Source: Streptomyces uncialis
GTDB taxonomy: Bacteria > Actinomycetota > Actinomycetes > Streptomycetales > Streptomycetaceae
Direction of reading: 5' to 3'
Length of the DNA: 64,000 nt
Assembly (NCBI RefSeq): GCF_036250755.1
Contig: NZ_CP109583.1
Coordinates: 3,658,001 to 3,722,000, forward strand
Positions 9,999 through 50,062 of this stretch are shown here, piece after piece. The translations under genes were made by a program, and so were the position numbers. The notes under the pieces were generated by a model. That model did no database searches and was not told the DNA's origin. It was given only the letters and a program-made list of their open reading frames with translations. Each line of letters starts with the position of its first letter. Positions within the stretch are counted from its first letter, which is position 1.

Positions 9999-10048
9999 GG
10001 ACCTGTTCCCCGTACCCCCGTCCCGGCCGTCGCTGAGGAGTCGCCGCC

Positions 10049-10380: not shown

Positions 10381-10509
10381 ATGCTGTGGTCCGACCCCGA
10401 GAACAAGCCGCCCGAGGAACTGCGCGACATGCAGGGCATGCTGCGCAGAGCGGGCATCGTGCTGGCCCTCGCCATGATCCTGGCGATGGTCACCCTGGGT
10501 CTGCGCTGA
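10381..10509 (+). CDS. Small single-span membrane protein
   Basis: A 42-residue frame reading [20 protein letters not shown], then LRRAG and one hydrophobic helix ([16 protein letters not shown]) ending in Arg. It fills the gap between the epsilon subunit and maf. I recall a similar tiny gene at this place in other Streptomyces. The expected topology is a cytoplasmic acidic N-terminus with one membrane helix. No strong ribosome site is seen before the ATG, so the exact start is less certain. Function unknown. Confidence 0.7.
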
Positions 10510-10570
10510 CCCGTCCCAGCCGGGCCCGTCCGCTGCCGGGCGCCCCGTCCGGCTGCCCTACGCTCTGTCC

Positions 10571-11188
10571 ATGAGCGAAGCACGTCACCTCGTCCTGGCC
10601 TCCCAGTCCCCCGCCCGGCTCGGGCTCCTGCGTCAGGCGGGCCTCGACCCCGAGGTCATCGTCAGCGGGGTCGACGAGGACGCCGTGAGCGCCCCGACCC
10701 CCGCCGAACTGGCCCTCGCGCTCGCGGTGGCCAAGGCGTCGGTGGTCGCCGCCCGGCCGGAGGTCGTCCGCGCCGGGTCGCTGGTCGTCGGCTGCGACTC
10801 GGTCCTCGACCTCGACGGCGAGGCGCTCGGCAAGCCCGCCGACGCCGAGGAGGCCACCGCCCGCTGGAAGTCCATGCGGGGCCGCGCGGGCACCCTCCAG
10901 ACCGGGCACTGCGTGTACGACGCCCGCACCGGACGACATGTCTCCGCGACCGCGTCGACCGTGGTGCGCTTCGGGGAGCCCACGGACGCCGAGATCGCCG
11001 CGTACGTCGCCTCCGGCGAGCCCCTGCACGTCGCGGGCGCCTTCACCCTGGACGGCCGCTCGGCCCCGTTCGTGGACGGCATCGACGGCGACCACGGCAA
11101 CGTCATCGGGATCTCGCTGCCGCTGCTGCGCCGGCTGCTCGCGGAGCTCGGCGTGGGCATCACCGACCTGTGGACGCCGCGTCCTTGA
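10571..11188 (+). CDS. maf: Maf-type nucleoside triphosphate pyrophosphatase
   Basis: 205 residues starting [20 protein letters not shown]; the SxSPxR motif, [15 protein letters not shown] with the catalytic Asp, and the C-terminal [28 protein letters not shown] segment all match Maf. These enzymes hydrolyse non-canonical or methylated NTPs to NMP and pyrophosphate and are also linked to septum control. It starts 61 bases after the small membrane gene and is probably co-transcribed with pccB. Confidence 0.92.
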
Positions 11189-11607
11189 CCTGCCGCGCCG
11201 CCCCACCCGCGCCTACTCACGGGTAGGGCGGCCGGAGGCGGCCCGCGCGACGCAAAGAACCGTTGGGCCATTCGTAGGGATTCCACAAAGAAACCCGATC
11301 TCCGGCAGCGCTCTCTCATAGAGACCTTGGCCACACGGCGGGGCTAGGGTTCTCCACAGGATTCCTGCGCACCGGGTATGACGAGGGATTTCACCGCGCA
11401 CGGGACCTGTTCTCACGCTCTGTGTGGGCAAGCTCACCAGGGGGAACAGGTCGTAAGGCCGTGTCGGCAGTCCCTAAACTCGGCGTGTTCCGGGGAAGTC
11501 TTTCGAAGTGAGCGGCACGGGGACCCGTGGACCGCGTCGGCCCGTGGGCCGCGGGCCGGAGTCCGGGGTTCGGCCCCCCGGTCGAAAACTGCAAGGAGGG
11601 AGCCATC
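11189..11607. other. Long non-coding leader upstream of accA2
   Basis: 419 bases without a convincing gene; frames crossing it have poor codon use and no ribosome sites. It contains a short hairpin right after maf (CCTAC..GTAGG near 11212) and AT-richer patches around 11270-11370 that could hold the accA2 promoter. I could not assign a clear -35/-10 pair. The last bases carry the strong AAGGAGGG ribosome site of accA2. Confidence 0.5.
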
Positions 11608-13362
11608 GTGCGGAAGGTGCTCATCGCCAATCGCGGCGAGATCGCGGTTCGGGTGGCACGGGCGTGCCGGGACGCGGGGATCGCGAGTGTGGCGGTCTAC
11701 GCGGAGCCGGACCGTGACGCGTTGCATGTCCGGGTGGCGGATGAGGCGTTCGCGCTGGGTGGGGACACCCCCGCCGCCAGCTATCTCGACATCACCAAGG
11801 TACTCAAGGCGGCGGCGGACTCGGGCGCGGACGCCGTGCACCCGGGCTACGGCTTCCTGTCGGAGAACGCGGAGTTCGCCCAGGCCGTGACCGACGCGGG
11901 CCTGACCTGGATCGGTCCGCCGCCCCAGGCCATCCGCGACCTCGGCGACAAGGTCGCCGCCCGGCACATCGCCCAGCGCGCGGGCGCGCCGCTGGTCGCC
12001 GGGACGCCGGACCCGGTGTCCGGCGCGGACGAGGTCGTGGCCTTCGCGAAGGAGCACGGACTGCCCATCGCGATCAAGGCCGCGTTCGGCGGTGGCGGGC
12101 GCGGGCTGAAGGTGGCCCGCACCCTGGAGGAGGTCCCCGAGCTGTACGACTCGGCGGTCCGTGAGGCCGTCGCCGCGTTCGGCCGCGGCGAGTGCTTCGT
12201 CGAGCGCTATCTCGACAAGCCCCGGCATGTCGAGACCCAGTGCCTCGCCGACACCCACGGCAATGTCGTGGTCGTGTCCACCCGTGACTGCTCGCTCCAG
12301 CGGCGCCACCAGAAGCTGGTCGAGGAGGCCCCCGCGCCGTTCCTCTCCGACGAGCAGAACGCCCAGCTCTACGCGTCGTCCAAGGCGATCCTCAAGGAGG
12401 CCGGGTACGTCGGCGCGGGGACCGTCGAGTTCCTGGTCGGCGCCGACGGCACGATCTCCTTCCTGGAGGTCAACACCCGGCTCCAGGTCGAGCACCCCGT
12501 GACCGAGGAGGTCACCGGGATCGACCTCGTGCGCGAGATGTTCCGTATCGCCGACGGTGAGGCCCTCGGCTACGACGACCCGCCGGTGCGCGGCCACTCC
12601 TTCGAGTTCCGGATCAACGGCGAGGACCCGGGACGCGGCTTCCTGCCCGCGCCGGGCACCGTCACCGTGTTCGCCCCGCCGTCCGGGCCCGGTGTCCGGC
12701 TCGACGCGGGTGTCGAGTCCGGCAGCGTCATCGGTCCCGCGTGGGACTCGCTGCTCGCCAAGCTGATCGTGACCGGTGCGACGCGGGAGCAGGCCCTTCA
12801 GCGGGCCGCGCGGGCACTGGACGAGTTCCGGGTCGAGGGGATGGCCACGGCGATCCCCTTCCACCGCAAGGTCGTCGCCGACCCCGCGTTCACGTCCTCG
12901 CCGTTCCGGATCTTCACCCGGTGGATCGAGACCGAGTTCGTCAACGACATCCCCGCGTTCTCCGCTGTCGCGGACGCGGAGGCGGAGGACGAGACCGGCC
13001 GCGAGACGGTGGTCGTCGAGGTCGGCGGCAAGCGGCTGGAGGTGTCGCTGCCGTCCTCGCTCGGGATGTCGCTCGCGCGCACCGGTCTCGCGGCGGGCGC
13101 GCGGCCCAAGCGGCGGGCCGTGAAGAAGTCCGGGCCGGCCGCCTCGGGTGACGCGCTGGCCTCGCCGATGCAGGGCACGATCGTGAAGGTCGCCGTCGAG
13201 GAGGGCCAGGTCGTCGCGGAAGGGGACCTCGTGGTCGTGCTGGAGGCGATGAAGATGGAGCAGCCGCTCAACGCGCATCGTTCCGGGACGGTCAAGGGGT
13301 TGGGGGCGGAGGTCGGTGCCTCCGTCACCTCCGGCGCGGTGATCTGCGAGATCAAGGACTGA
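11608..13362 (+). CDS. accA2: Acyl-CoA carboxylase alpha subunit (biotin carboxylase + BCCP)
   Basis: Carboxylates its own biotin with ATP and bicarbonate, then serves carboxyltransferase partners such as PccB. GTG at 11608 follows AAGGAGGG at ideal spacing; 584 residues starting [19 protein letters not shown]. The ATP-grasp biotin carboxylase domain covers about 1-450: [12 protein letters not shown] loop, [15 protein letters not shown] and [15 protein letters not shown]. After a linker, the biotinyl domain ends with EAMKMEQPL, in which the central Lys is biotinylated by BirA. A strong hairpin follows the stop codon. Confidence 0.95.
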
Positions 13363-13420: not shown

Positions 13421-14090
13421 GGGTCGCCTTCGCTTGCGCTTCCTAGGTCTGTCCGGCTGGCCGTACTTCGTTCCTGTGCCGTCGTTCGTCGTTTTCGCGC
13501 AGTTCCCCGCGCCCCTTTGGGGCGCAACCGGCTTGTTCTTCGGGTCGGTGCCGGTCGGGATTCTCCGTCCTCGCTCCAACGCGCTCGGTACGACGTTTCC
13601 TTACCCGGCTGAAGAGCATCGGAGTCTGCGAGCAGAGATTCCCGCCCACCCCCTCCCGTAGCGGGGCGAGTCCGCGAGGAGGATGGTTCAACCCCGCCCC
13701 GGGCTGATGCCGGCCCGCAGGCAGACGGCAGCCCCAGGAGGGCGCCCCCAAAGGGGCGCGGGGAACTGCGCAAAAGACGAGAACCGGCCCGCACCCGAAC
13801 AGCGACCGCAAGAAGGCAGCACCTCAGGGGCGCGGGGAACTGCGCAAAAGACGAGGGCGGACCCGCACCCGAGGAACGACCGCAATGGGGCAGCATCAGG
13901 GGCGCGGGGAACTGCGCACCCACGAACGGCCCGCACAGGAACAAGTACGCCGAGCCGGACAGACCTCAGAAGCGCAAGCGAAGGCGACCTGCGGGGGAAC
14001 TGCGCACCCACGAACGGCCCGCACGGGAACAAGTACGTCCCGCCGGACGGACCTCGGAAGCGCGAACGAAGGTGACATGCTGGGGGGACC
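13421..14090. repeat. Composite intergenic repeat, cluster 3
   Basis: Spacer between accA2 and the TetR gene, both on the plus strand. It begins GGGTCGCCTTCGCTTGCGC straight after the accA2 terminator. The core is on the minus strand (reverse complement of TCTGCTCGCAGACTCCGATG at 13617-13636), antisense to both neighbours. The right half holds several inverted GGGGCGCGGGGAACTGCGC copies and ends about 30 bases before the TetR start. Confidence 0.85.
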
Positions 14091-17841: not shown

Positions 17842-18730
17842 CCGCCTTCGCTTGCGCTTCCCAGGTCTGTCCGGCCTTGCGCACTTGTTTCTGTGCGGTC
17901 GCTCGGTGGTTTCGCGGTTCCCCGCGGGTCGCCTTCGCTTGCGCTTCCCAGGTCCGTCCGGGGTGGGCGCACTCGTTCCTGTGCCGTCGCTCGGTGGCTT
18001 CGCGCAGTTCCCCGCGCCCCTGGGTGCTGCCCCTGTCCGTCGTTCTTCGGGTGCGGCCCGGTCCTCGTCCTGCGCAGTTCCCCGCGCCCCTTTGGGGCGC
18101 ATCCGGTCGGTTCTTCGGGTCGGTGCCGGTCGGGATTCTCCGTCCTCGCTCCAACGCGCTCGGTCGGACGTTCCTGTGGTCGGACTGAAGAGCATCGGAG
18201 TCTGCGGGCAGAGATTCCCGCCCACCCCCTCCCGCAGCAGCGCGAGTCCGCGAGGAGGATGGTTCAACCCCGCCCCGGGCTGACGCCAGCGCGCAGCCTG
18301 ACCCCACCCGCAGCCTGAGAACAGCCCCAGGTGGGCGCCCCCAAAGGGGCGCGGGGAACTGCGCAAAGACGAGGGCAGGCCCGCACCCGAAGAGCGACCG
18401 CCAGAGGGCAGCACCCAGGGGCGCGAGGAACTGCGCACCCACGAACGACCTGTGCGGGAACAGGTACGCCCAGGTGGGGAACCCTAGGGGCGCGGGGAAC
18501 TGCGCGAAGACGAGGACCGGCCCGCACCCGAAGAGCGACCGCCAGAGGGCAGCATCCAGGGGCGCGGGGAACTGCGCACCCACGAACGACCTGTGCGGGA
18601 ACAAGTACGCCCAGCCGGACAGACCTCAGAAGCGCGAGCCACCGAACGACCTGTGCGGGGACAAGTACGTCCAGCACAGGAAACCTCGGAAGCGCGAGCG
18701 AAGGCGACCCGCTGGTCCGGGATCTGAGAC
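17842..18730. repeat. Composite intergenic repeat, cluster 4
   Basis: Spacer between two plus-strand genes, beginning immediately after the stop codon with CCGCCTTCGCTTGCGCTTCC. Two forward arms, a minus-strand core (18193-18212, variant TCTGCCCGCAGACTCCGATG) and several inverted arms follow. Within the right half a block of about 140 bases is nearly duplicated (around 18350-18470 and 18490-18610), showing recent internal expansion. Confidence 0.85.
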
Positions 18731-26261: not shown

Positions 26262-27208
26262 CTACACGGGTCGCCTTCGCTTGCGCGTCTGAGGTCTGTC
26301 CGGGTGGGCGCACTCCGTTCCGGTGCCGTCGCTCGGTGGGTTCGCGCAGTTCCCCGCGGGTCGCCTTCGCTTGCGCGTCTGAGGTCTGTCCGGCTGGACG
26401 CACTCCGTTCCGGTGCCGTCGCTCGGTGGGTGCGCAGTTCCCCGCGCCCCTTTGGGGCGCGTTCTGCTTGTTCTTCGGGTCGGTGCCGGTCGGGATTCTC
26501 CGTCCTCGATCCGACACGCTCGGTACGACGTACGTGTGGTCCTACTGAAGAGCATCGGAGTCTGCGAGCAGAGATTCCCGCCCACCCCCTCCCGTAGCCA
26601 TGCGCCTGCGGGAGGAAGGGGGTTTGAACCCCGGCCGGGCTGACGCCAGCCCGCTGTCTGACCCCACCCGCAGACTCAGAGCAGCCCCAGGTGGGCGCCC
26701 CAAAGCGGCGCGGGGAACTGCGCAAAAACGAGGGCAGACCCGCCCCCGAAGAGCGACCGCAAGAGGGCAGCACCTCAGGGGCGCGGGGAACTGCGCAAAG
26801 ACGAGGACCGGCCCGCACCCGAAGAACAAACCCGAAGGGGCAGCATCCAGGGGCGCGGGGAACTGCGCACCCACCGAGCGACGGCACAGGAACGAAGTGC
26901 GCCACGCCGGACAGACCTCGGAAGCGCAAGCGAAGGCGACCTGCGGGGAACTGCGCACCCACGAACGGCCCGCACAGGGACAAGTACGCCCAGCACAGGA
27001 AACCCAGGGGCGCGGGGAACTGCGCACCCCACGAGCGACGGCACAGGGACAAGTGCGCCCACCCGGACAGACCTGACAAGCGCGAGCGAAGGCGACCCGC
27101 ACGGGGAACAGGTACGCCCAGCACAGGAAACCCAGGGGCGCGGGCGACGGCGAGGTCCGGACCTGGGTACGGTCGACGTGTGGCTGCGGGGCGCGAGCGA
27201 AGGCGACC
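26262..27208. repeat. Composite intergenic repeat, cluster 5
   Basis: The longest element, about 950 bases between two plus-strand genes. Two forward arms, a minus-strand core (26553-26572) and at least five inverted arms in which GGGGCGCGGGGAACTGCGC recurs. It ends with GCGCGAGCGAAGGCGACCTG at the very edge of the deoC promoter, so the element supplies the sequence just upstream of the -35 box. Confidence 0.85.
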
Positions 27209-34438: not shown

Positions 34439-35092
34439 GTGACTTCTCATCCCGCCATACCGGTGTCACCGGCCCGTGTCGTGCTGCTCACCGGACCCTC
34501 CGGTTCCGGCAAGTCCTCGTTCGCGGCGCGCAGCGGACTGCCCGTGCTGTGTCTCGACGACTTCTACAAGGAGTGGGACGACCCCTCGCTGCCCCGGGTC
34601 GCGGGCTCGTCCGACATCGACTGGGACTCACCGCTGTCCTGGGACGCGGACACGGCGGTGGCCGCGCTGGCACGTCTGTGCGGGGAGGGACGGACCGAGG
34701 TCCCCGTGTACGACATCTCCACGAGTTCCCGTACGGGGGCGGGGGTGCTGGACCTCCGGGGGGCGCCGCTGTTCGTGGCGGAGGGGATCTTCGCGGCGGA
34801 TGTCGTGGCGCGGTGCCGGGAGCTGGGGATACTCGCGGACGCGATCTGCCTGCGCGGGCGGCCGGTGACGACGTTCCGGCGGCGGCTGCTGCGGGATCTT
34901 CGCGAGGCGCGTAAGCCGGTGGGGTTCCTGCTGCGCAGGGGGTGGCGGCTGATGCGGGCCGAGCGGGGGATCGTGGGGCGGCAGGTGGCGCTCGGGGCGG
35001 TGGCCTGTGACGGGGACGAGGCCGTGGCCCGTCTGTCACGGGCCACAGCGGCGCAACGCCTTCGCTCGCGCTTCTCAGGCCTGTCCGGCTGA
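34439..35092 (+). CDS. Uridine-kinase-like P-loop kinase
   Basis: 217 residues from GTG 34439. Walker A GPSGSGKSSFA; LCLDDFYKEWDDPSLP carries the DDFY substrate/metal motif of uridine and pantothenate kinases; DIDWDSPLSWD, VYDISTSSR and FVAEGIFAADVV follow. It probably phosphorylates a nucleoside or similar alcohol. The last residues RLRSRFSGLSG and the stop codon are encoded by the first module of repeat cluster 6, so the native end has probably been replaced by repeat sequence. Confidence 0.82.
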   Translation: MTSHPAIPVSPARVVLLTGPSGSGKSSFAARSGLPVLCLDDFYKEWDDPSLPRVAGSSDIDWDSPLSWDADTAVAALARLCGEGRTEVPVYDISTSSRTGAGVLDLRGAPLFVAEGIFAADVVARCRELGILADAICLRGRPVTTFRRRLLRDLREARKPVGFLLRRGWRLMRAERGIVGRQVALGAVACDGDEAVARLSRATAAQRLRSRFSGLSG

Positions 35093-35834
35093 GCGCACTT
35101 GTCCCTGCGCGGGCCGTCCGTGGGTGCGCAGTTCCCCGCGGGTCGCCTTCGCTCGCGCTTCCCAGGTCTCTCCGGCGGGACGTACTTGCCCCTGTGCGGG
35201 CCGTTCGTGGGTGCGCAGTTCCCCGCGGGTCGCCTTCGCTTGCGCTTGTGAGGTCTGTCCGGCTGGACGTACTTCGTTCCTGTACGGGCCGAACGGGGGT
35301 GCGCAGTTCCCCGCGCCCCTGGATGCTGCCCCCTTGCGGTCGCTGCTCGGGTGCGGGGCCGCCCTCGTCTTCGCGCAGTTCCCCGCGCCCCCGGATGCTG
35401 CCCCTTCGGGATTGTTCGTCGGGTGCGGGGCCGTCCTCGTTCTTGCGCAGTTCCCCGCGCCCCTTCGGGGGCGCCCCCTGAGGTTGTTCTTCACCCTCCT
35501 CCTCGCGCAGTCGCATGGCTGCGGGAGGGGGTGGGCGGGAATCTCTGCCCGCAGACTCCGACGCCACCAGTACGACCACTGAACGTCCGTACCGAGCGCG
35601 TTGGAGCGAGGACGGAGAATCCCGACCGGCACCGACCCGAAGAACCGGCCGGGAGCGCCCCAAAGGGGCGCGGGGAACTGCGCGAAGACGAGAACCGGCC
35701 CGCACCCGAAGAGCGACGAACAGGGGCAGCATCCAGGGGCGCGGGGAACTGCGCAAACCCACGGGCGACGGCACAGGGACAAGTGCGTCCACCCGGACGG
35801 ACCTGGGAAGCGCAAGCGAAGGCGACCCGCGGAC
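35050..35834. repeat. Composite intergenic repeat, cluster 6
   Basis: Between convergent genes. Three forward arms, with the first one inside the end of the kinase frame, then a plus-strand core (35544-35563, variant ending GACG in place of GATG) and inverted arms. The right end GGAAGCGCAAGCGAAGGCGA lies next to the EamA stop codon. Long frames read through this block only because the repeats lack stops. Confidence 0.85.
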
Positions 35835-35836
35835 TG

Positions 35837-36766
35837 TCAGGACTTCTGGGGTTCCGGGTCGAGAGGGGCCGACGGGACCGGAGGGCGGGGTGGGGCGGGG
35901 CGGCGGGAGACCGCTACGCCCAGCAGGCACAGGGCACCGCCCGCGAGCGCGACCGCACCGGGGATCTCCCCGAGGAAGATCCACGACAGCGCGACGACGA
36001 GCGCGGGCACCACGTACGTCGTGGCCCCCAGCTTCCCCGCCGTGGTCCGCGACAACGCGTACGCCCAGGTCCAGAACGCCAGCGCCGTGGGCAGCAGCCC
36101 GAGGTAGACGACCGAGAGGGTGACCCCCGTCGGCGCGGTCCGCACATCGGACACCAGCTGCCCCGCGAACGGCAGGCACGCCACCGCGGCGACCAGGCAG
36201 GCGAACGTCGTGACCTGGAGCGCCGAGGCATGCCCCAGGGACGACTTCTGCGCGACGACCCCGATCGCGTACCCGACCGCCGCGACCAGCAGGAGCAGCA
36301 CACCCCAGACGGAGCTGCTGCCCTCCCCGCCGAGGACCCCGGCGATCACCGTGCCGACGAAGGAGATCCCGAGGCCCAGCAGCAGCGGCCGGGGATAGCC
36401 CTCGCCCAGCACCCGTCCGCCGAGCAGCGCGACGAGGATCGGGCCGATGCCGATGATCAGCGCGGCGGTGCCCGCGTCGGTGTGCTGCTCGCCCCAGTTG
36501 AGGGCGACCATGTAGACCCCGAACCAGAAGACACCCGCCCCGAGGATGCCGGGCCACGCCTCCCGTTTCGGCAGCCCCTCGCCACGGGCGAGGAGGAGCG
36601 CGCCGAGCGCGAGGCCCCCGACGAGCAGCCGTCCCAGCGCCATCGACCCGGGATGGAAGTCCTCGACGGCGTACCGGATGGCGACGAACGCCGAGGCCCA
36701 CAGCAGCATGGTGACGCTGATCGCGAGGAGCGCCTTGGTGTCCGGGGAGCGGGGTGGTGTGGTCAT
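35837..36766 (-). CDS. EamA/DMT-family transporter
   Basis: 309 residues, ten predicted membrane helices in two EamA repeats (first half LLWASAFVAIRYAVEDFHPG; second half VAAVGYAIGVVAQKSSLGH). The ATG at 36766 overlaps the stop of the ligase gene as ATGA, so it is translationally coupled as the last gene of a three-gene operon. Members export metabolites such as amino acids or aromatic compounds. In this context export of a hydroxybenzoate-derived product is an inference. Confidence 0.88.
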   Translation of the reverse strand: MTTPPRSPDTKALLAISVTMLLWASAFVAIRYAVEDFHPGSMALGRLLVGGLALGALLLARGEGLPKREAWPGILGAGVFWFGVYMVALNWGEQHTDAGTAALIIGIGPILVALLGGRVLGEGYPRPLLLGLGISFVGTVIAGVLGGEGSSSVWGVLLLLVAAVGYAIGVVAQKSSLGHASALQVTTFACLVAAVACLPFAGQLVSDVRTAPTGVTLSVVYLGLLPTALAFWTWAYALSRTTAGKLGATTYVVPALVVALSWIFLGEIPGAVALAGGALCLLGVAVSRRPAPPRPPVPSAPLDPEPQKS

Positions 36767-38295
36767 GAGTGAGGATCACCTTCCCGCGCCAGCGCGCGTA
36801 CCGCGCGGCGCAGTAGTTTTCCGGTGGGATTGCGAGGCAGTTCGGGGACGATCAGTACGTCGTCGGGGACCTTGTACCAGGTGAGCCGGGAGCGGGCGGT
36901 GGCGAGGAGTTCGGCGGTCACGGCCCCCGGCCGCGCCCCGTCGTGGAGTGCGGCGTAGGCGCGCAGGGACGTGGCGCCCCCGGCGCGGCGCACCGAGACG
37001 ACGGCGGCCTCCCGTACCGCGGGGTGCGCGGTCAGCAGGTCCTCGATCTCGGTGGGGTGGACGTTCTGGCCGCCGACGATCTCGATGTCGTCGAGCCGTC
37101 CGTGGACACTGACGTAGCCGTCGGCGTCGACGGTGGCGGCGTCACCGGTGGTGTACCACTCGTCGGGGGTGAGCCGCGCGGGTTCGGCGCCGCCGCGGGC
37201 GACCCCGGGGCCGATGGTGGGTCCGGCGACCTGGAGGCGGCCCTCGGTGCCGGCGGGCACCTCGTCGCCGTGGTCGTCGACGATCCGCAGCCGGTAGGGG
37301 GGAAGGACCCGGCCGAGGGTGTACTCGCGTATGCCGTGGGGGCCGTTGGCGAGCAGGGCGTGCCCGATCTCCGTGGTGCCGAAGATGTTGAGGAGCTTCT
37401 CGCCGAGGATCGCGCGCAGCCGTCGTTCCAGTACGGGCGGCAGCACCTCACCGGCCACGACGGCGGCCCGCAGGGTGGCGAGCACCCCGTGCGCGGGGTG
37501 GTCGAGCAGCCGGGCGTAGAAGCTGGGCTGTCCGTACAGGACGGTGACGCCGTGCTCCCCGACGGCCTTCAGGGTGTCGTCCTCGGTGGCCCGGCGGGGG
37601 CTCAGCACGGTGGTCGCGCCGCGCAGCAGCGGGAAGAACAGCGAGTTGCCGAGTCCGTAGGAGAAGTAGAGCCGGGAGACGGAGAAGCCGGTGTCGTCGG
37701 GTCCGATGCCGATGGCCTCCCCGGCGGCCCGGCTGAAGACCTCCGGGTCGCCGTGGGTGTGGAAGCACAGCCGCGGGTCGCTGGTGGTGCCGGAGGTGAA
37801 CGCGGCGAACGCGAGGCTGTCCGCGCCGACGCGGGCGTACGGGGGCGCGCCGGGCGAGGGGGTGCGCAGCTCACCGGGGGTGAGGACCAGCGGCGCGGGG
37901 AAGTGCCGGGCGAGTTCGGGGGCGGAGACGATCGCCGCGGGTTCCGCGAGCGCGGCGGCCCGGGTCAGTTCGGCGGCGTGCAGGGCCGAATTGACGGGAA
38001 CGGCGACGGCGCCGATGTGCAGGGCGCCGAGGAAGGCGCGGACGAAGTCGATGCCGTCGGGCACGGCGATCAGGATGCGGGAGCCGGGCCCGAGGCCGCG
38101 GGCGATGAACGCGGCGGCGGCCCGTCCGGCGCCCTCGTGGACCTCGGAGAAGAGGTACGAGCGGCCTTCGACGACATAGGCGCGGCGGCCCAGCCACCCG
38201 TGGGCGCGGGCGGTGGCGGCGAGGAGTTCGGCGAGATTGCCGCTGGGGACCGGGACGGGCACGGCGGGCGCGGGACGGACGGGTGCGATGCTCAT
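36763..38295 (-). CDS. Benzoate-CoA-ligase-type aryl:CoA (or carrier) ligase
   Basis: 510 residues from ATG 38295. ANL superfamily: AFTSGTTSDPRLCFHTHGD is the P-loop (Arg in place of the usual Lys), LYFSYGLGNSLFFPLLRG is diagnostic for the benzoate/hydroxybenzoate-CoA ligase branch, NIFGTTEIGHALLAN binds AMP, YTTGDAATVD holds the ribose Asp, and LPRNPTGKLLRR holds the C-terminal catalytic Lys. The start overlaps the chorismatase stop (ATGA). It should activate the benzoic acid made by that enzyme to a CoA or carrier thioester. Confidence 0.9.
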   Translation of the reverse strand: MSIAPVRPAPAVPVPVPSGNLAELLAATARAHGWLGRRAYVVEGRSYLFSEVHEGAGRAAAAFIARGLGPGSRILIAVPDGIDFVRAFLGALHIGAVAVPVNSALHAAELTRAAALAEPAAIVSAPELARHFPAPLVLTPGELRTPSPGAPPYARVGADSLAFAAFTSGTTSDPRLCFHTHGDPEVFSRAAGEAIGIGPDDTGFSVSRLYFSYGLGNSLFFPLLRGATTVLSPRRATEDDTLKAVGEHGVTVLYGQPSFYARLLDHPAHGVLATLRAAVVAGEVLPPVLERRLRAILGEKLLNIFGTTEIGHALLANGPHGIREYTLGRVLPPYRLRIVDDHGDEVPAGTEGRLQVAGPTIGPGVARGGAEPARLTPDEWYTTGDAATVDADGYVSVHGRLDDIEIVGGQNVHPTEIEDLLTAHPAVREAAVVSVRRAGGATSLRAYAALHDGARPGAVTAELLATARSRLTWYKVPDDVLIVPELPRNPTGKLLRRAVRALAREGDPHS

Positions 38296-39308
38296 CCGGC
38301 TATCCCTTCTATCTCCACCAGCAGATCGGGGCGGCAGACGTCGACGTTGAGGTAGGCGATGTCGGCGTGGTCGGGGAAGACCTCCGCGCACCTGGCGCGC
38401 ACCAGCGGCAGATCGTGCTCGTCGCGTACGTAGACCTTGATGGAGTCGAGGTCCTTGAGGCCGTAGCCGCCCTCCACACCGTGCTCGCGCAGGTTGCCGG
38501 GGCTGATGAGGGCCTCGATGTTGGCGAGGGTCGCGTCGACCTGGGCGGCGATGTCGTCGTGGTGGACGGTGTCGTCGCCGACGATGCTGGCCGTCCCGGA
38601 GACATAGACGGTGCCCGTGGACCCGTCGGCGGCCGGCAGATGGGTGGCGCGGGCGAAGCTCGGGGACTTCGGGCCGTACTGCTTGGGGTACTTGTACGCG
38701 GGGGTCTGGTTCGGGTTCTCCAGATGGCGGGGCACCCCGGCGCGGGTGGCGAGGAAGTACAGGTCGATCCCGGGGCTGAGGCTGCCGATGCCGGTGGCGG
38801 CGGGGATCCGGCCGGGCCACTTGTCGAAGGCGCGGGCGCGGCCCACGCAGAAGTCCCGGTAGTTCTCCATGCCTTCGGCGTTGTCGCCGGTGATGGCGCC
38901 GACGAGGTTCCACATCCGGAACAGTTCGGTGTACCCGAGCCGGGACAGCAGGGCGAACGCCTGCTCGTAGGCGGACTGCACGGCGTTCTGGTAGACGCCC
39001 CGCTCGTCGATCCGGACCGCGCAGAAGATGTGGTCGCCGTCCTCCGCGTAGACGAGGCTGCCCTCGACCCCGGCGCGCACCGGCCGGTCGGTCACCCATA
39101 TCTCGGTGAACGGTTCGGTGTTGTCCCCCGCCATATGCACCGTGAGGCGGGGCGCCCCCTCGTGCAGGGTGGGCGGCTGGCCGCCCCGGGCGTAGGCGAC
39201 CCGGCCCAGCACACCGCGACCGACGACATCCGCGCGGCCGTGGCACGCGGACTTCACGAAAAGGCACTCCAGACCACGGCGGACGGGGGAGCGATGTGTA
39301 TCGGTCAT
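38292..39308 (-). CDS. Chorismatase, FkbO/Hyg5-like
   Basis: 338 residues from ATG 39308. The family signature is clear: YPKQYGPKSPSFARATHL, VYVSGTASIVGDDTVH, DIAAQVDATLANIEAL and a C-terminal VCRPDLLVEIEG with the catalytic Glu at 332. Chorismatases hydrolyse chorismate to pyruvate plus either dihydroxycyclohexadienoate (FkbO) or 3-hydroxybenzoate (Hyg5). If I recall Hyg5 numbering correctly (Gly240, Cys327, Glu334), then Gly238, Cys325 and Glu332 match with a constant offset of two, favouring 3-hydroxybenzoate. First gene of a coupled operon with the ligase and an exporter. Confidence 0.9.
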   Translation of the reverse strand: MTDTHRSPVRRGLECLFVKSACHGRADVVGRGVLGRVAYARGGQPPTLHEGAPRLTVHMAGDNTEPFTEIWVTDRPVRAGVEGSLVYAEDGDHIFCAVRIDERGVYQNAVQSAYEQAFALLSRLGYTELFRMWNLVGAITGDNAEGMENYRDFCVGRARAFDKWPGRIPAATGIGSLSPGIDLYFLATRAGVPRHLENPNQTPAYKYPKQYGPKSPSFARATHLPAADGSTGTVYVSGTASIVGDDTVHHDDIAAQVDATLANIEALISPGNLREHGVEGGYGLKDLDSIKVYVRDEHDLPLVRARCAEVFPDHADIAYLNVDVCRPDLLVEIEGIAG

Positions 39309-39501
39309 GGTTTCCGTCAGCCCCAGCCCTGATCGTCACGGTTCATTTGTAACCCCCGCATGTCGAGTTCTTGAAATTTCTATGGCGATGTGCTCGGTGC
39401 GAATGGTGCTACGTCTTCAACATCACCACAGAAACCTTCTGTTCGCCTTTCTCGCATAGGCTCCAAGTAATGCCAGGCGCAAACTGGAGGGGTGACAGGG
39501 C
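39309..39501. promoter_or_regulatory. AT-richer divergent promoter region
   Basis: 193 bases between the chorismatase operon and the LuxR-type gene, clearly richer in A/T than the surroundings (for example TTCTTGAAATTTCTATGG near 39368). TAGGCT near 39458 is a plausible -10 box for the LuxR gene. GGAGG precedes its ATG. No obvious long palindrome. Confidence 0.45.
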
Positions 39502-40539
39502 ATGGGAAACAGCGACATAAGGGATCTCCCGGAGGTCCCTCAGGCGGGGACGCTCGCCAACCGTGTGTACGAACTCGCGCTGCACAGCGACTTCGTCGAC
39601 GCCGAGGTATGCGTCCGCGAGCTGGGCATCACCCGCGAGGAGGCCGAGCGCACCGTGCGCGACCTGGTCGACCTGCGGCTGCTGCTGTCCGCCCATGGCT
39701 GCCGCGCCACCTATGTCGCGGTCAACCCGCTGTCCGCGTCCCTTCAGCTCCTCGCCCCGTACGACGAGCAACTTCGATCAAGACAGAACGAGTTGGAGCA
39801 GATCCGGCAGCAGATGCACAGTCTGCTGCCGTTGTACCGGGCGAACCTCCCCGAGGAACAGTCCGGGCCCGAGATCCAGCGCATCGACGACCTCGACACC
39901 GTGCGCGGGGTCCTCGGCCAGCTCGCCGAGCAGTGCCGGACCGAGGTCATCACCTCGCAGCCGGGCGGCGCCCGGGATGTCGGGGTGCTGCGCGAGGCCG
40001 CCCGCCGCGACCGTGAGGTGCTCGACCGCGGGGTGCGGATGCGGACGCTCTACCAGCACACCGCGCGATTCGATCAGCCCACCCGGGAATACGTGGAGCG
40101 CATTTCCGAGGGCGGCGCCGAAGTACGGACCACGACCGGCGGATTCCAGCGGGCGATAGTTTACGACCGCAGCGCCGCCGTCATACCCCTCGCCGACAAT
40201 TCCCGGGGTGCGCTGCTGGTCCGCGATCCGGATCTCGTGCATTTCGTGGCGGAGGCTTTCGAGGGGTCCTGGGACACCGCCGATCCGTTCCGTCCGACCT
40301 ATGACCGCGACGAGATCCGGCTGGTGTCGGACACCCTCAACCGGTCGCTGCTGCGGATGCTCGCCAACGGCCATGACGACAAGGCCATCGCGCGGCGGCT
40401 CGGTATCTCACCGCGGACCTGCCAGCGGCGGATCTCGGAACTGATGCATGAACTCGGCGCCCGTACCCGGCTGCACGCCGGGGTCCTGATCCATCAGCGC
40501 GGTCTGCTGGACGAGCCGGTGCCCGTCACCGCCGGATAG
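39502..40539 (+). CDS. LuxR-type transcriptional regulator
   Basis: 345 residues. The N-terminal part (about 1-100) looks like a winged-helix, TrmB-like domain (CVRELGITREEAERTVRDLVDLRLL) with a coiled segment (RSRQNELEQIRQQMHSLL). The middle resembles a phospholipase-D-like sensing fold (AVIPLADNSRGALLVRDPDLV). The C-terminal LuxR helix-turn-helix reads MLANGHDDKAIARRLGISPR and TCQRRISELMHELGARTRLH. Such regulators commonly sit beside Streptomyces natural-product genes. Divergent from the chorismatase operon, its likely target. Confidence 0.88.
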   Translation: MGNSDIRDLPEVPQAGTLANRVYELALHSDFVDAEVCVRELGITREEAERTVRDLVDLRLLLSAHGCRATYVAVNPLSASLQLLAPYDEQLRSRQNELEQIRQQMHSLLPLYRANLPEEQSGPEIQRIDDLDTVRGVLGQLAEQCRTEVITSQPGGARDVGVLREAARRDREVLDRGVRMRTLYQHTARFDQPTREYVERISEGGAEVRTTTGGFQRAIVYDRSAAVIPLADNSRGALLVRDPDLVHFVAEAFEGSWDTADPFRPTYDRDEIRLVSDTLNRSLLRMLANGHDDKAIARRLGISPRTCQRRISELMHELGARTRLHAGVLIHQRGLLDEPVPVTAG

Positions 40540-40616
40540 CGCACCACCGCAGGACGGACCGGTCCGGCGGCGCACACCGGTGACGGACCCGGCAGGCAAG
40601 GCCACCGGGAACGCGA

Positions 40617-40660
40617 AGAAGCAGGACCGGGAAGACCCCCCGGCCTCCGGTCCTGCTTCT
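40617..40660. terminator. Bidirectional terminator between LuxR gene and sigQ
   Basis: AGAAGCAGGACCGG (40617-40630) and CCGGTCCTGCTTCT (40647-40660) form a perfect 14-bp stem with a 16-base loop, 77 bases after the LuxR gene stop. Confidence 0.8.
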
Positions 40661-40670
40661 CCTGTCACGG

Positions 40671-40893
40671 CCCCCGCGACTCCCACCCCCCGGTGGTCAC
40701 CGCTCTCCCGTCGGGCCGATCTCCCCCGTGTTCCCACCCCCCGGTGGGTCCACGTCCCCCGTGCGGTCCGTCCCCCGACGGACCCGCTCCCCCGGCATCC
40801 CCCGCCGTGGGGCGCGTCCTCCCCCCGTACCCCCGATCGTGCTCCCACCCCCGTGGGGTACTTCTTCCCCCCGTCCGGTGCCGTGCCTCCCCC
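40671..40893. repeat. C-run tract (G-runs on the sigQ strand)
   Basis: Thirteen runs of five or six C in 223 bases, at intervals of roughly 9-37 bases and often followed by GTG or GAT. There is no gene. On the minus strand these are G-runs immediately downstream of the sigQ stop codon, so the sigQ transcript would carry them before it meets the terminator. Intramolecular G-quadruplex formation is possible. Confidence 0.7.
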
Positions 40894-40928
40894 GATGGCC
40901 CGGTACCGGGCCCTTCGACGGTCCGCCG

Positions 40929-41669
40929 CTACGCGACGAGTTCGCCGAAGGACTCCTCCTCGTCACGGCCGAAGCTGAGGACCTGGTCCTCACGCAGCCG
41001 GCGCAGGGAGCGCCAGATGCTGGACTTCACCGTGCCGACACTGATGCCGAGGATCTCCGCGATCTCCGGGTCGGTGCGGCCCTCGTAGTAGCGCAGGACC
41101 AGCATCGTCCGCTGGAGTTCGGGCAGCCGGGCCAGCGCCTGCCACAGGACCGCGCGCAGCTCCGTGCCGCGCATCGCGTCCGTGTCGCCGGCCGTCTCCG
41201 GCAGCTCCTCGGTCGGGTACTCGTTGAGCTTGCGCCGCCGCCAGGCGCTGATGTGCAGATTCGTCATCGTGCGGCGCAGATAACCGCCGACGGCGGCCTT
41301 GTCGCTGATCCGGTCCCAGGCCCGGTACGTCGAGAAGAGGGCGCTCTGGAGCAGGTCCTCCGCCTCGAAGCGGTCCCCGGTCAGGTGGTACGCCGTGGCG
41401 TACAGGGAGGCCCGGCGCTCCTGGACGTACGCCGTGAACGCCTGCTCGGCGCTCGGCTCGGTCCTGCGCTCCCCCGTGGCCTCCCCGTGCGCACTGCCCC
41501 CGTTCGGCGCGTCGACCACCGTCATATAGGCGGTGTGCTGACGCCCGGTGCCGCGAGCGCACCCCCGCCCGCTCACGGCACCGGCCTTCTCGATGGAACC
41601 GTTCCCCCGTCCGCCGTCGTGAAGACGCGTGACGACCGCGCTCGCGGTGATGCCGTGCGGCTTGTTCAT
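40929..41669 (-). CDS. sigQ: ECF-type RNA polymerase sigma factor SigQ
   Basis: 246 residues from ATG 41669; a shorter ATG at 41525 lacks a ribosome site. Region 2: LYATAYHLTGDRFEAEDLLQSALFSTYRAW; region 4: LPELQRTMLVLRYYEGRTDPEIAEILGISVGTVKSSIWRSLRRL. This is the SigE-like ECF family typical of Streptomyces. The gene is divergent from afsQ1, as in S. coelicolor, where SigQ and AfsQ1 jointly control antibiotic production under nitrogen-limited conditions. An AfsQ1-type box sits between them. A G-run tract follows the stop. Confidence 0.93.
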   Translation of the reverse strand: MNKPHGITASAVVTRLHDGGRGNGSIEKAGAVSGRGCARGTGRQHTAYMTVVDAPNGGSAHGEATGERRTEPSAEQAFTAYVQERRASLYATAYHLTGDRFEAEDLLQSALFSTYRAWDRISDKAAVGGYLRRTMTNLHISAWRRRKLNEYPTEELPETAGDTDAMRGTELRAVLWQALARLPELQRTMLVLRYYEGRTDPEIAEILGISVGTVKSSIWRSLRRLREDQVLSFGRDEEESFGELVA

Positions 41670-41757
41670 CTCGCGCCCCCCGTCGGTGGTGTTCCCCCGT
41701 GTTCCCTGCGATGACCAGAATCCTGCCGGGGGCACTTCATGGCGGTGTCCGCCGACT

Positions 41758-41773
41758 GTCACAGGCCTGTCAC
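41758..41773. promoter_or_regulatory. AfsQ1 box in the sigQ-afsQ1 intergenic region
   Basis: GTCACAGGCCTGTCAC fits the described AfsQ1 consensus GTnAC-n6-GTnAC exactly, with two GTCAC direct repeats 11 bases apart. It lies 89 bases upstream of sigQ and about 115 upstream of afsQ1, where autoregulation and sigQ control are expected. Confidence 0.8.
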
Positions 41774-41887
41774 AGGGGTCCGGGGCGCTCAGGCGGACCG
41801 GGCGGCGGGGCGTGCGCGCGGGGCGCCGGGGAGCGGACGGGCCCCGGCAGTCGAAACCCCACCGTGCTATGGGACAGAATGAGGCCC

Positions 41888-42565
41888 GTGCCTTCCCTGT
41901 TGCTGATCGAGGACGACGACGCCATCCGTACGGCCCTGGAGCTGTCTCTGACACGCCAGGGTCACCGGGTGGCCACCGCTGCCACCGGCGAGGACGGCTT
42001 GCAGCTCCTGCGTGAGCAGCGGCCGGACCTGATCGTGCTGGACGTGATGCTGCCGGGCATCGACGGATTCGAGGTGTGCCGCCGTATCCGGCGCACCGAC
42101 CAGTTGCCGATCATCCTGCTGACCGCGCGGAGCGACGACATCGACGTCGTCGTCGGACTGGAGTCCGGCGCCGACGACTATGTCGTCAAACCCGTGCAGG
42201 GCCGGGTGCTCGACGCCCGGATCCGCGCGGTGCTGCGCCGGGGGGAACGCGAGTCGACGGACTCCGCGACCTTCGGCAGCCTGGTCATCGACCGGGCCGC
42301 GATGACGGTGACCAAGAACGGCGAGGACCTGCAACTCACCCCGACCGAACTGCGGCTGCTCCTGGAGCTGAGCCGCAGGCCCGGTCAGGCGCTGTCACGG
42401 CAGCAGTTGCTGCGGCTGGTGTGGGAGCACGACTACCTCGGTGACTCCCGGCTCGTGGACGCGTGTGTGCAGCGGCTGCGGGCCAAGGTCGAGGACGTCC
42501 CGTCGTCCCCGACGCTCATCCGTACGGTGCGAGGGGTCGGCTACCGGCTGGACAGTCCTCAGTGA
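41888..42565 (+). CDS. afsQ1: Two-component response regulator AfsQ1
   Basis: OmpR-type regulator, 225 residues from GTG 41888 (the S. coelicolor length); an in-frame ATG at 41879 is an alternative. The receiver domain has IEDDDAIRTAL, phospho-acceptor Asp52 in IVLDVMLPGIDG, and Thr/Lys in LLTARSDD and VVKPVQGR. The winged helix covers about 125-225 (LQLTPTELRLLLELSRRPGQ, VRGVGYRLD). Stop and start overlap (GTGA) with afsQ2. Known to activate antibiotic genes and repress development with glutamate as nitrogen source. Confidence 0.95.
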   Translation: MPSLLLIEDDDAIRTALELSLTRQGHRVATAATGEDGLQLLREQRPDLIVLDVMLPGIDGFEVCRRIRRTDQLPIILLTARSDDIDVVVGLESGADDYVVKPVQGRVLDARIRAVLRRGERESTDSATFGSLVIDRAAMTVTKNGEDLQLTPTELRLLLELSRRPGQALSRQQLLRLVWEHDYLGDSRLVDACVQRLRAKVEDVPSSPTLIRTVRGVGYRLDSPQ

Positions 42566-44175
42566 CCGCAGAGCGTGACCAGGCCGGGCGACCCGGCGAC
42601 CGGAAGGGTGCCGGCACCGGCACACCGCGCGGCTGGGCCCGTACGCGCCGGGCGGTGTCCCTGGGGATGCGGTTCACCAGTCTGCGGCTGCGGCTCGTCC
42701 TCGTGTTCGCCCTGGTGGCGCTGACGGCGGCGGTGTCGGCGTCGGGGATCGCGTACTGGCTGAACCGGGAAGCGGTGCTCACCCGCGCCCAGGACGCGGC
42801 GCTGAACGACTTCCAGCAGGAGATGCAGAACCGGGCGGGCGCCCTGCCGGGCCGTCCCACCCAGACCGAGCTGGAGAACACCGCCGGGCAGATGGCGACG
42901 AGCAACCAGCACTTCAGTGTGCTGCTGATAGCGCGCGACGCGGTCGGGGACACCGTTGTCGGCAACTCCGACCTGGACACCTTCTCCCTCTCCGACGTAC
43001 CGGAGTCGCTGCGCGAGGCCGTGGACCAGCGCCAGCGGCTGTCGTCCACCAACAAGTCGCCGTACCACCTGTACTGGCAGCGGATCTCCGACGACGACAC
43101 CCCGTACCTGGTGGCCGGGACCCGGCTGATCGGCGGCGGGCCGACCGGCTACATGCTGAAGTCGCTGGAGCCGGAGGCCAAGGACCTCAACTCGCTGGCC
43201 TGGTCACTGGGGATCGCGACGGGTCTGGCGCTGATCGGGGCCGCGCTGCTGGCGCAGGCCGCCGCGACGACCGTCCTCAGACCGGTGCACCGGCTGGGCG
43301 CCGCCGCCAGACGGCTCGGCGAGGGCAAGCTGGACACCCGGCTGCGGGTCTCCGGCACCGACGAACTCGCCGAACTGTCACGGACGTTCAACCAGGCCGC
43401 GGCGGCCCTGGAGAAGCGGGTCGCGGACATGAGCGCCCGGGACGAGGCGTCCCGCCGGTTCGTCGCGGACATGTCCCATGAACTGCGGACCCCGCTGACC
43501 GCGATCACCGCGGTCACCGAGGTGCTGGAGGAGGAACTGGACGCGGAGACCGGCAGCGTCGACCCGATGATCGAACCGGCGGTACGGCTCGTGGTGAGCG
43601 AGACCCGGCGGCTGGGCGACCTGGTGGAGAACCTGATGGAGGTGACCCGCTTCGACGCGGGCACCGCCCGGCTGGTCCTCGACGACGTGGACCTGGCCGA
43701 CCAGATCACCGCCTGCATCGACGCCCGCGCCTGGCTGGACGCCGTCGAACTGGACGCGGCGCGCGGGATCATGGCACGGCTCGACCCGCGGCGCCTCGAC
43801 GTGATCCTCGCGAACCTGATCGGCAACGCGCTCAAGCACGGCGGTTCGCCGGTACGGATCGCGGTGCGCACCGATGTCACCGACGGCGCCGACGACGTAC
43901 TGATCGAGGTCAGCGACCACGGTCCCGGAATCCCGCTGGAGGTGCTGCCGCATGTCTTCGACCGCTTCTACAAGGCCAGCGCGTCCAGGCCGCGTTCGGA
44001 GGGCAGCGGGCTCGGGCTGTCGATCGCGCTGGAGAACGCCCATATCCACGGCGGGGAGCTGACCGCCGCCAACGCACCCGAGGGGGGAGCGGTGTTCACC
44101 CTGCGGCTGCCCCGTGACGTCTCCGACACGAGCGGACCCTCCGGGGTGCCCGACCCGCAGGGCGGTGCCCGGTGA
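42562..44175 (+). CDS. afsQ2: Sensor histidine kinase AfsQ2
   Basis: 537 residues from GTG 42562, overlapping afsQ1. Two membrane helices (VLVFALVALTAAVSASGIAY and LAWSLGIATGLALIGAALLA) flank an extracellular sensor region of about 150 residues. A HAMP segment follows, then the H-box FVADMSHELRTPLTAITAV with the phosphorylated His, N-box DVILANLIGNALKHGG, G1 VSDHGPGIPLEVL and G2 SEGSGLGLSIA. Partner kinase of AfsQ1. The lipoprotein gene follows with another GTGA overlap. Confidence 0.95.
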   Translation: MTAERDQAGRPGDRKGAGTGTPRGWARTRRAVSLGMRFTSLRLRLVLVFALVALTAAVSASGIAYWLNREAVLTRAQDAALNDFQQEMQNRAGALPGRPTQTELENTAGQMATSNQHFSVLLIARDAVGDTVVGNSDLDTFSLSDVPESLREAVDQRQRLSSTNKSPYHLYWQRISDDDTPYLVAGTRLIGGGPTGYMLKSLEPEAKDLNSLAWSLGIATGLALIGAALLAQAAATTVLRPVHRLGAAARRLGEGKLDTRLRVSGTDELAELSRTFNQAAAALEKRVADMSARDEASRRFVADMSHELRTPLTAITAVTEVLEEELDAETGSVDPMIEPAVRLVVSETRRLGDLVENLMEVTRFDAGTARLVLDDVDLADQITACIDARAWLDAVELDAARGIMARLDPRRLDVILANLIGNALKHGGSPVRIAVRTDVTDGADDVLIEVSDHGPGIPLEVLPHVFDRFYKASASRPRSEGSGLGLSIALENAHIHGGELTAANAPEGGAVFTLRLPRDVSDTSGPSGVPDPQGGAR

Positions 44176-44789: not shown

Positions 44790-45630
44790 CGCCTTCGCTC
44801 GCGCTTCTGAGGTCTTCCCGGCCGGGCCCACTTGTCCCCGTGCGGGTCGCCTGCGCTCGCGCTTCCTCGGTCTGTCCGGCTGAGCGCACTTGTTCCTGTG
44901 CCGTCGCTCGGTGGGTGCGCAGTTCCCCGCGGGTCGCCTTCGCTTGCGCCCCGGAGGTTCCACACCTGGGCCCACCGGTTCCCGTGCAGGTCGGACGGGG
45001 GTGCGCAGTTCCCCGCGCCCCTGGATGCTGCCCCCTTGCGGTCGCTTCTCGGGTGCGGGTTCGCCCTCGTTCTCGCGCAGTTCCCCGCGCCCCTTTGGGG
45101 CGCGTTCTGCCGGTCCTTTGGGGCGGGGCCGGTCGGGATTCTCCGTCCTCGATCCGACACGCTCGGTAACACGTCCAGTGACCCGACTGAAGAGCATCGG
45201 AGTCTGCGAGCAGAGATTCCCGCCCACCCCCTTCGGCAGCCGAGCGAGTCCGCGAGGAGGGTGGTTGAACCCCAGCCCCGGGCTGATGACAGCCCGCAGC
45301 CTGACCGCAGCCCCAGACGGGCGCCCCCAAAGGGGCGCGGGGAACTGCGCAAGAACGAGGACGGCCCCGCACCCGACGAACAACCGCAAGGGGGCAGCAT
45401 CCAGGGGCGCGAGGAACCGCGCGAGCAACCAAGGGCCATCCGCACGCGAACGGGAACCGCAAGGGGCGCAGCCCAAGGGGCGCGGGGAACTGCGCACCCC
45501 ACGAGCGACGGCACAGGGACAAGTGCGGTCAGCCGGACGGACCTCGGGAGCGCGAGCGAAGGCGACCCGCACAGGGACAAGTGGGCTCAGCCGGACGGAC
45601 CTGGAAAGCGCGAGCGAAGGCGTTGCGTGA
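44790..45630. repeat. Composite intergenic repeat, cluster 7
   Basis: Spacer between two plus-strand genes, starting CGCCTTCGCTCGCGCTTCTG at the base after the stop codon. Forward arms, a minus-strand core (45195-45214) antisense to both neighbours, then inverted arms. The right end GCGCGAGCGAAGGCG lies about 65 bases before the VanZ start. Confidence 0.85.
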
Positions 45631-49219: not shown

Positions 49220-50062
49220 GTCGCCTTCGCTCGCGCTTCCGGGGTCCGTCCGGCTGGACGTACTTGTCCCCGTGCGGGCCGTCCGTGGGTGCGCAGTTCC
49301 CCGCAGGTCGCCTTCGCTTGCGCTTCTGAGGTTCCCCACCTGGGCGTACTTGTTCCCGTGCGGGTACGTCCGTGGGTGCGCAGTTCCCCGCGCCCCTGGA
49401 TGCTGCCCCCTTGCGGCCGCTTCTCGGGTGCGGGCCGCCCTCGTCTTTTGCGCAGTTCCCCGCGGGCCGCCTTCGCTTGCGCTTCTGAGGTTCCCCACCT
49501 GGGCGTACTTTGTTGCCGTGCGGGTCGTCCGTGGGTGCGCAGTTCCCCGCGCCCCTGGGTGCTGCCCCGCTCGGTCGCTCTTCGGGTGCGGGTGCGCCCT
49601 CGTCTTTTGCGCAGTTCCCCGCAGGTCGCCTTCGCTTGCGCTTCTGAGGTTCCCCGCCTGGGCGTACTTGTTCCCGTGCGGGCCGTCCGTGGGTGCGCAG
49701 TTCCCCGCGCCCCTGGGTGCTGCCCCGTTCGGTCGCTCTTCGGGTGCGGGCCTGCCCTCGCTTTTGCGCAGTTCCCCGCGCCCCTTAAGGGGCACCCCCT
49801 TCCTCTCGCAGGCGCTCGGCTGCGGGAGGGGGTGGGCGGGAATCTCTGCTCGCAGACTCCGATGCTCTTCAGTAGCTCCGCTGGACGTCGTACCGAGCGT
49901 GTCGGATCGAGGACGGAGAATCCCGACCGGCACCGACCCGAAGAACAAGCCGGATGCGCCCCAAAGGGGCGCGGGGAACTGCGCGAAACCCACGAACGAC
50001 GGCACAGGAACAAGCGCGCCCACCCGGACAGACCTGGGAAGCGCAAGCGAATGCGGCCCCCG
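49220..50062. repeat. Composite intergenic repeat, cluster 8
   Basis: Between convergent genes, starting right after the hydrolase-fold stop codon. Four forward arms in a row (GTCGCCTTCGCTTGCGCTTC recurs with the following CTGAGGTTCCCC-type link), a plus-strand core (49845-49864) and one inverted arm ending next to the LPMO terminator. The most asymmetric of the eight elements. Confidence 0.85.

Follow-up and report, generated by a model that had tools for sequence, protein, structure and literature searches.

What does a chorismatase gene do when its immediate company is a ligase, a transporter and a regulator? The question is raised by a stretch of 64,000 nucleotides of the Streptomyces uncialis genome (the window; contig NZ_CP109583.1, positions 3,658,001 to 3,722,000). 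In it, genes for a chorismatase, an aryl-acid ligase and an EamA transporter are joined on the minus strand by two ATGA overlaps and faced by a divergent gene with a LuxR-type helix-turn-helix (HTH). Coordinates and strands of this arrangement, as given in an initial annotation of the sequence, were checked and are correct (Table 1). The four genes (the quartet) are probably, at a moderate level of confidence, a self-contained unit that makes, activates and exports a 3-hydroxybenzoyl compound under its own regulator. What is read directly from the DNA is which genes are present, in what order and with which overlaps, together with the residue type, the repeated occurrence of the quartet and the site that is empty in relatives. 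The host genome (9.26 Mb) holds one match to the chorismatase family TIGR04444, and the same locus is present on a contig of S. uncialis DCA2648, where the four encoded proteins are 99.6-100% identical.

Assignment of the four proteins

The chorismatase scores 450.6 bits against the FkbO/Hyg5 family TIGR04444 (cut-off 325), with model positions 2-310 of 311 covered. Its matches in the PDB are Hyg5 (5ag3, 346 bits, E 2e-102) and FkbO (4bps, 261 bits, E 1e-76). In Hyg5 numbering G173, G240, C327 and the catalytic glutamate E334 are all kept, and these CH-II residues are present in all four quartet chorismatases known from the survey described below. The corresponding markers in Nat-hyg5 are G164, G231, C318 and E325, and Nat-hyg5 yields 3-hydroxybenzoate (3-HBA) in vitro (PMC7170507). 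A CH-I enzyme of the FkbO type was considered and rejected: alanine is expected at positions 240 and 327, where the window protein has glycine and cysteine. Alanine occupies both positions in FkbO 4bps and at loci L030 and L048. Among 31 surveyed loci 27 show the G/G/C/E pattern, L030 and L048 the two alanines, L047 a valine at 173, and L046 no glutamate; L036, with its chorismatase inside a 732-aa frame, was omitted from this count and from the tree. As the four CH-II residues are present, the predicted products from chorismate are 3-HBA and pyruvate; the initial annotation had proposed a hydroxybenzoate, which is upheld as a prediction, and the residues point to the 3-isomer.

The ligase has both domains of the ANL superfamily (PF00501, 207.2 bits, cut-off 29.9; PF13193, 54.6 bits), and its phosphate loop (T167-T171) and C-terminal K493 are invariant in 15 aligned ligases. 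The best PDB match is the benzoate-CoA ligase 2v7b. It scores under the cut-off for all of the 25 NCBIfam models listed out of 107 matched, among which the FadD22 and benzoate-CoA ligase families are best: 314.4 bits for the p-hydroxybenzoyl-AMP ligase FadD22 (NF004716, curated cut-off 1228) and 273.5 bits for TIGR02262 (375.25). It differs from FadD22 in that the match is limited to positions 3-488 of the 705 in the model. The protein is predicted to activate 3-HBA as the AMP or CoA ester.

Relatives of the ligase at 40-47% identity occur without a chorismatase in 36 further genomes of 295, and as a second copy in G068; seven such loci were read. At L096 the gene adjoins a 3-dehydroquinate-synthase-II gene, a DeoC-type aldolase and an arylamine N-acetyltransferase, a gene set known from 3-amino-4-hydroxybenzoate pathways. 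At L098 it adjoins a UbiA prenyltransferase. At L102 it lies with a TrpE/G-like fusion, an FAD hydroxylase, a carboxymuconolactone-decarboxylase-like gene and a second AMP-binding protein that resembles a diazotase model only weakly (69.7 bits against a cut-off of 975); L099-L101 have the same gene families, with domains read in L102. These loci look like small aryl-acid pathways, which fits activation of an aryl acid for conjugation.

The transporter contains two PF00892 stretches (151.4 bits, cut-off 28.2). Twelve EamA regions were fetched for comparison, and L087 was left out as no EamA appeared in its gene calls; in the resulting tree the four quartet EamA proteins group together (100/100), apart from the 11 other Streptomyces EamAs. 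Of 101 Streptomyces genomes, 68 gave a match to the window protein, among them the host and G068; in genomes other than the host the identity is 47-65%. The exporter of the initial annotation is retained as an EamA protein for which export is predicted, with the qualification that it belongs to a separate branch of an exporter that is common in Streptomyces. At L079-L082 a common EamA relative and a shorter LuxR-type gene stand tail-to-tail; three of these genes that were aligned are 34-38% identical to the window regulator. The tail-to-tail pairs hint that exporter and regulator were recruited jointly.

The regulator matches the GerE HTH profile (27.9 bits, cut-off 23.5). At E values up to 0.001 HTH families alone were matched, and no autoinducer-binding domain of the acyl-homoserine-lactone (AHL) type was found. 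An AlphaFold2 (AF2) model from 8 sequences has a predicted local distance difference test score (pLDDT) of 74.7 and a predicted template modelling score (pTM) of 0.45. Foldseek matches this model to TrmBL2 (5box) at E 6.6e-12 but with template modelling (TM) scores of 0.35/0.45, and to the PLD-family structure 1byr with a TMt of 0.74. The protein as modelled looks like an N-terminal winged helix, a TrmB/PLD-like middle domain and a C-terminal LuxR HTH. A LuxR protein of the AHL type was rejected, since the profile shows an HTH only and the modelled middle domain matches TrmB/PLD folds; of the "LuxR-type activator" first proposed, the LuxR HTH stands and the remainder looks TrmB/PLD-like. That it senses a small ligand is a guess from the model. 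The two best non-self matches in a survey of 101 genomes, in G034 (48%) and G068 (50%), each lie beside a chorismatase gene, the former being the relic described below. Evidence for a shared operator in the divergent region is weak: a motif near the regulator start is common to three lineages and is reached by 2 of 100 shuffles.

Recurrence and chromosomal site

The TIGR04444 cut-off was exceeded by 20 of the 392 genomes drawn from the genus and by 19 of 391 drawn from the order, all 19 again of the same genus; the overlapping draws jointly give 31 genomes and 32 loci. Genomes with a TIGR04444 match below the cut-off (4 in the genus draw, 10 in the order draw, 17 in the class draw) lie outside these counts. 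The neighbourhoods of all 32 loci were read over about 20 kb using sequence motifs and a custom gene caller, the stretch being shorter at L034 (9.7 kb), L045 (12 kb), L035 (16 kb) and L030 (17 kb). A ketosynthase motif was found within about 20 kb at 13 of the 32 loci; none was found in the stretch read at the other 19. The initial statement that chorismatases normally lie inside large polyketide clusters finds no support, as worded, in this sample, which suggests that Streptomyces chorismatases are not mainly polyketide-starter enzymes.

Beyond the 13 ketosynthase loci there are six of class B, six of class C, two others (L070, L078), four quartets and one relic. Class B (L031, L032, L034, L039, L068, L069) combines a CH-II chorismatase with a tyrosine 2,3-aminomutase homologue, a P450 and an MFS transporter. 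In five of the six a ligase lies between chorismatase and aminomutase; it is absent in L039. The L031 aminomutase scores 949 bits against TIGR03832 (cut-off 501), and the other five homologues are 76-93% identical to it; L031 further holds three ATP-grasp ligases, a PALP enzyme and a hexapeptide transferase. These clusters look like ones that join 3-HBA and beta-tyrosine; no product of that kind was found in a limited literature search. Class C (L040, L041, L042, L073, L074, L075) combines the chorismatase with a class II 3-deoxy-D-arabino-heptulosonate 7-phosphate (DAHP) synthase, a luciferase-like monooxygenase and an MFS transporter, and shows no ketosynthase motif in the stretch read. Its domains were read in L042, and the others were assigned by 71-84% identity.

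A neighbourhood search for the triad had been proposed in the initial annotation. It returned the same four genes at L043, L044 and L077, that is, in three more (G176, G068, G586) of the 31 chorismatase-bearing Streptomyces genomes besides the host. The relic (L046, positions 9482-12634, in G034) has the regulator beside a chorismatase in which unrelated sequence takes the place of the end with the catalytic glutamate; neither a ligase nor an EamA gene was found at this locus. Five genomes in a class sample of 394 exceed the TIGR04444 cut-off, three of them outside the genus (L121-L123), and no quartet was found in the 20 kb read around those three. In the chorismatase phylogeny, likewise proposed at the outset, the quartet, relic and class B proteins among 33 rows form one group (100/100), apart from the PKS-linked (polyketide synthase) and class C proteins. 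As a side observation, the chorismatase of G285 (L021, L026), one of the matches below the TIGR04444 cut-off, is split over two overlapping frames, probably by a frameshift or sequencing error.

The quartet in the window is flanked by a kinase-like gene ending at 35092 and a SigE-family sigma gene ending at 40929. Eight of 23 other genomes with a match were fetched, and in seven of these eight Streptomyces the flank genes lie next to each other in convergent orientation, with 213-594 bp between blast edges, so that the site is empty; the eighth (L103) gave no sigma match at this position. Six genes that flank the window quartet were looked for in the 20 kb surrounding the relic and each of the three other quartets, and none had a match there. 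L044 and L077 have flanks in common, though only between these two, and are 92-96% identical; the intact quartet is therefore seen at three separate sites, not four. Genes common to L043, L044 and L077 include no extra biosynthetic gene. Domains were read for ten neighbours, among them one luciferase-like gene next to L044 and one gene for an LCM methyltransferase next to L043. The stand-alone character suggested initially gains support from the same quartet occurring elsewhere without the window flank genes and from the empty site in relatives. The same two observations disfavour a fragment of a larger cluster.

A related explanation, that the quartet is the relic of a larger 3-HBA cluster that lost its core genes, is very improbable. 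It would account for the pair of chorismatase and ligase in the larger class B clusters (L031, L032, L034, L068, L069), and one chorismatase relic, L046, is known. Against it stand the same gene content with open reading frames and an own regulator across lineages diverged to 47-69% identity, as well as the different sites and the empty site.

Several findings weigh against a self-contained unit. The quartet is rare (3 of 392 genus genomes including the host, and one more in the order draw), and two of its four genomes, G068 and G586, are near-copies. The quartet chorismatases are not one clade, the window protein being placed away from the others. Nor are the quartet ligases one clade in a tree limited to ligases under 600 aa and disturbed by one very long row, where a single clade is not rejected (p-AU, the approximately unbiased test, 0.293). 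EamA relatives at 47-65% identity are common without a chorismatase, and L039 combines a chorismatase with an aminomutase and has no ligase, so the pair is not obligatory. The quartet also holds no acyltransferase or carrier protein; since export of a CoA ester is not expected and a transferase is absent, one step is missing or done elsewhere. Because of the chorismatase, ligase and EamA trees and the regulator matches, the chorismatase-ligase pair looks older than the quartet, with exporter and regulator tied to it later, possibly more than once.

Predicted pathway and its alternatives

The reactions, export and regulation of the self-contained unit are predicted from sequence as follows. A four-gene cassette would have settled at different chromosomal sites. 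Its chorismatase would convert chorismate to 3-HBA, and the ligase would adenylate this acid and then transfer it either to CoA or straight to a small nucleophile. The small end product that EamA would carry out of the cell is most likely a 3-hydroxybenzoyl conjugate, possibly free 3-HBA. The TrmB/PLD-LuxR protein would regulate the divergent promoter, perhaps in response to a small ligand. Activation followed by export, the order first proposed, is supported as a predicted order, with an AMP or CoA ester as the intermediate. McbA-type amide bond synthetases, which form ATP-dependent aryl-acid amides without a separate transferase (PMC6282839), are a possible model for the missing step. If the ligase formed an amide directly, as McbA does, no further gene would be required. 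A bolder and doubtful extension treats the pair as an old and portable 3-hydroxybenzoyl donor module with varying acceptors, such as beta-tyrosine in class B; the quartet ligase would then itself form an amide or ester, so that the route from chorismate to a secreted aryl conjugate would need two enzymes and an exporter, and the regulator would sense the exported conjugate as a non-lactone signal.

3-HBA is a diffusible factor in Xanthomonas, and the cassette could instead export free 3-HBA as a signal or allelochemical, the ligase recapturing or removing the intracellular acid. Synthesis is accompanied by an exporter and by a regulator whose modelled fold may include a ligand domain, as such a role would have it. 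The ligase is, however, translationally coupled behind the chorismatase, also in the aminomutase-bearing class B, to which forward synthesis fits better; the signal role is considered quite unlikely.

Supply of a starter unit in trans would require a distant acceptor. The observation that no PKS or nonribosomal peptide synthetase (NRPS) is visible extends past the window: of 37 ketosynthase matches in the host genome the nearest clear pair, at 3.615-3.617 Mb, falls outside the window at a distance of about 77 kb. A cluster of the rapamycin/FK506 type, with a ligase-ketosynthase PKS beside the chorismatase, was rejected, as no ketosynthase lies within about 77 kb and the ligase is a separate protein. 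Among 66 AMP-binding matches the operon ligase is the sole one between 2.12 and 4.98 Mb; the lack of another AMP-binding gene within more than 1 Mb, like that of a ketosynthase within about 77 kb, counts in favour of a self-contained unit.

Under the trans explanation, which is unlikely, the cassette would feed 3-hydroxybenzoyl-CoA or 3-HBA to a distant PKS or NRPS, and EamA would be incidental or an exporter of surplus acid. A precedent exists in Nat-hyg5, which lies in an unrelated S. conglobatus PKS cluster and feeds 3-HBA to the distant neoantimycin line (PMC7170507), and the ketosynthase-family and AMP-binding matches make candidate acceptors many. Five host regions of 20 kb (L091-L095) were read by motif, most host PKS and NRPS genes lying outside them; for the other quartet genomes the analysis went as far as a list of ketosynthase matches. 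By motif, L091 starts with an acyltransferase-acyl carrier protein (AT-ACP) and L093 resembles KSQ-AT, L092 is similar by spacing only, and L094 and L095 show no readable PKS start. L095, an aryl NRPS region at 8.44 Mb, already has its own dihydroxybenzoate (DHB)-AMP-ligase-like protein (587 bits, below the cut-off of 723.55). In this partial search no partner for an aryl starter stood out in the five regions, and the dedicated exporter and regulator that accompany the pair also speak against supply in trans.

Compared with known systems, the cassette shares enzyme family, diagnostic residues and expected product with Hyg5 and Nat-hyg5. Those enzymes (BC325, unantimycin supply) act within or feed modular PKS/NRPS lines (PMC7170507), whereas the cassette combines its exporter and regulator with a stand-alone ligase and has no assembly line close by. 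Already known are this type of enzyme, its part in supplying 3-HBA, and the use of 3-HBA in trans (PMC7170507). The arcuflavin and xanthomonadin loci likewise join a chorismate-to-hydroxybenzoate enzyme of the XanB2 type with an AMP-ligase and have no modular PKS (PMC3949708). The XanB2 type differs in giving 3- and 4-hydroxybenzoate for aryl-polyene pigments. Those loci hold carrier proteins and ketosynthases, genes absent from the cassette. The brasilicardin cluster is a large terpenoid cluster and differs in that the quartet is absent. It is similar in placing 3-HBA as a donor group on a non-polyketide (PMC7170507). Class B is alike in chorismatase and ligase (61-67% identical to those of the window, with the same 4-nt overlap), and differs in having P450, aminomutase and MFS genes in place of the EamA and LuxR-type genes.

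S. uncialis is reported to have at least 30 clusters and to make an enediyne, cladoniamides and ammosesters (PMC8210675); the main text of that paper does not contain "hydroxybenz". No report of the quartet was found in a literature search judged by titles and abstract openings, in which subscription journals were thinly covered, and this is weak evidence of novelty. The cassette is a minimal four-gene unit that could be cloned whole, with a product predicted to carry a 3-hydroxybenzoyl group. Such cassettes are without the hallmark genes of large clusters, and genome mining may overlook them.

Features of the locus and its surroundings

Table 1. Positions of the quartet genes, their junctions and the repeat arrays, numbered from the first letter of the window
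Feature	Position	Strand	Basis or remark
Chorismatase, CH-II (Hyg5) type by residues	38292-39308	-	TIGR04444, PDB matches, diagnostic residues
Stand-alone aryl-acid adenylating ligase, ANL superfamily, 510 aa	36763-38295	-	PF00501 and PF13193
EamA (DMT) transporter, predicted exporter	35837-36766	-	PF00892, two repeats
Divergent regulator with LuxR-type (GerE) HTH	39502-40539	+	GerE profile, AF2 model, Foldseek
ATGA overlap chorismatase/ligase	38292-38295	-	
ATGA overlap ligase/EamA	36763-36766	-	
Divergent promoter region	39309-39501		Between chorismatase and regulator genes
Stretch parting two genes that are convergent and adjacent in relatives	35093-40928		Holds the repeat array 35081-35832
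GGCGCGGGGAACTGCGC sites	35081-35832, 703-1289, 5523-5901, 13497-13917		
GGCGCGGGGAACTGCGC sites, continued	18002-18577, 26344-27025, 44917-45495, 49378-49984		

The 4-nt overlap of chorismatase and ligase is also present in the called genes of L043 and of all five ligase-bearing class B loci; in L044 and L077 it is 10 nt as called. Ligase and EamA are set apart by short gaps, as called, in L043, L044 and L077. A scan for promoters and terminators gave 0 promoter-like sites and 4 terminator-like sites against a mean of 1.4.

A 17-bp word, GGCGCGGGGAACTGCGC, occurs in 46 copies in the window at up to two mismatches (0.16 expected) and in 1163 exact copies in the genome (0 for the reversed control). 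The copies lie mostly in head-to-head arrays, with 72/87-bp spacing in the one analysed, which form long intergenic inverted repeats. The gaps at the seven empty sites were searched for the array that lies between EamA and the kinase-like gene, and it was not found in any of them. Beyond the quartet, at 40929-44175, the SigE-family sigma gene is divergent from genes for a response regulator and a histidine kinase, an arrangement which we take to resemble sigQ/afsQ1/afsQ2 of S. coelicolor.

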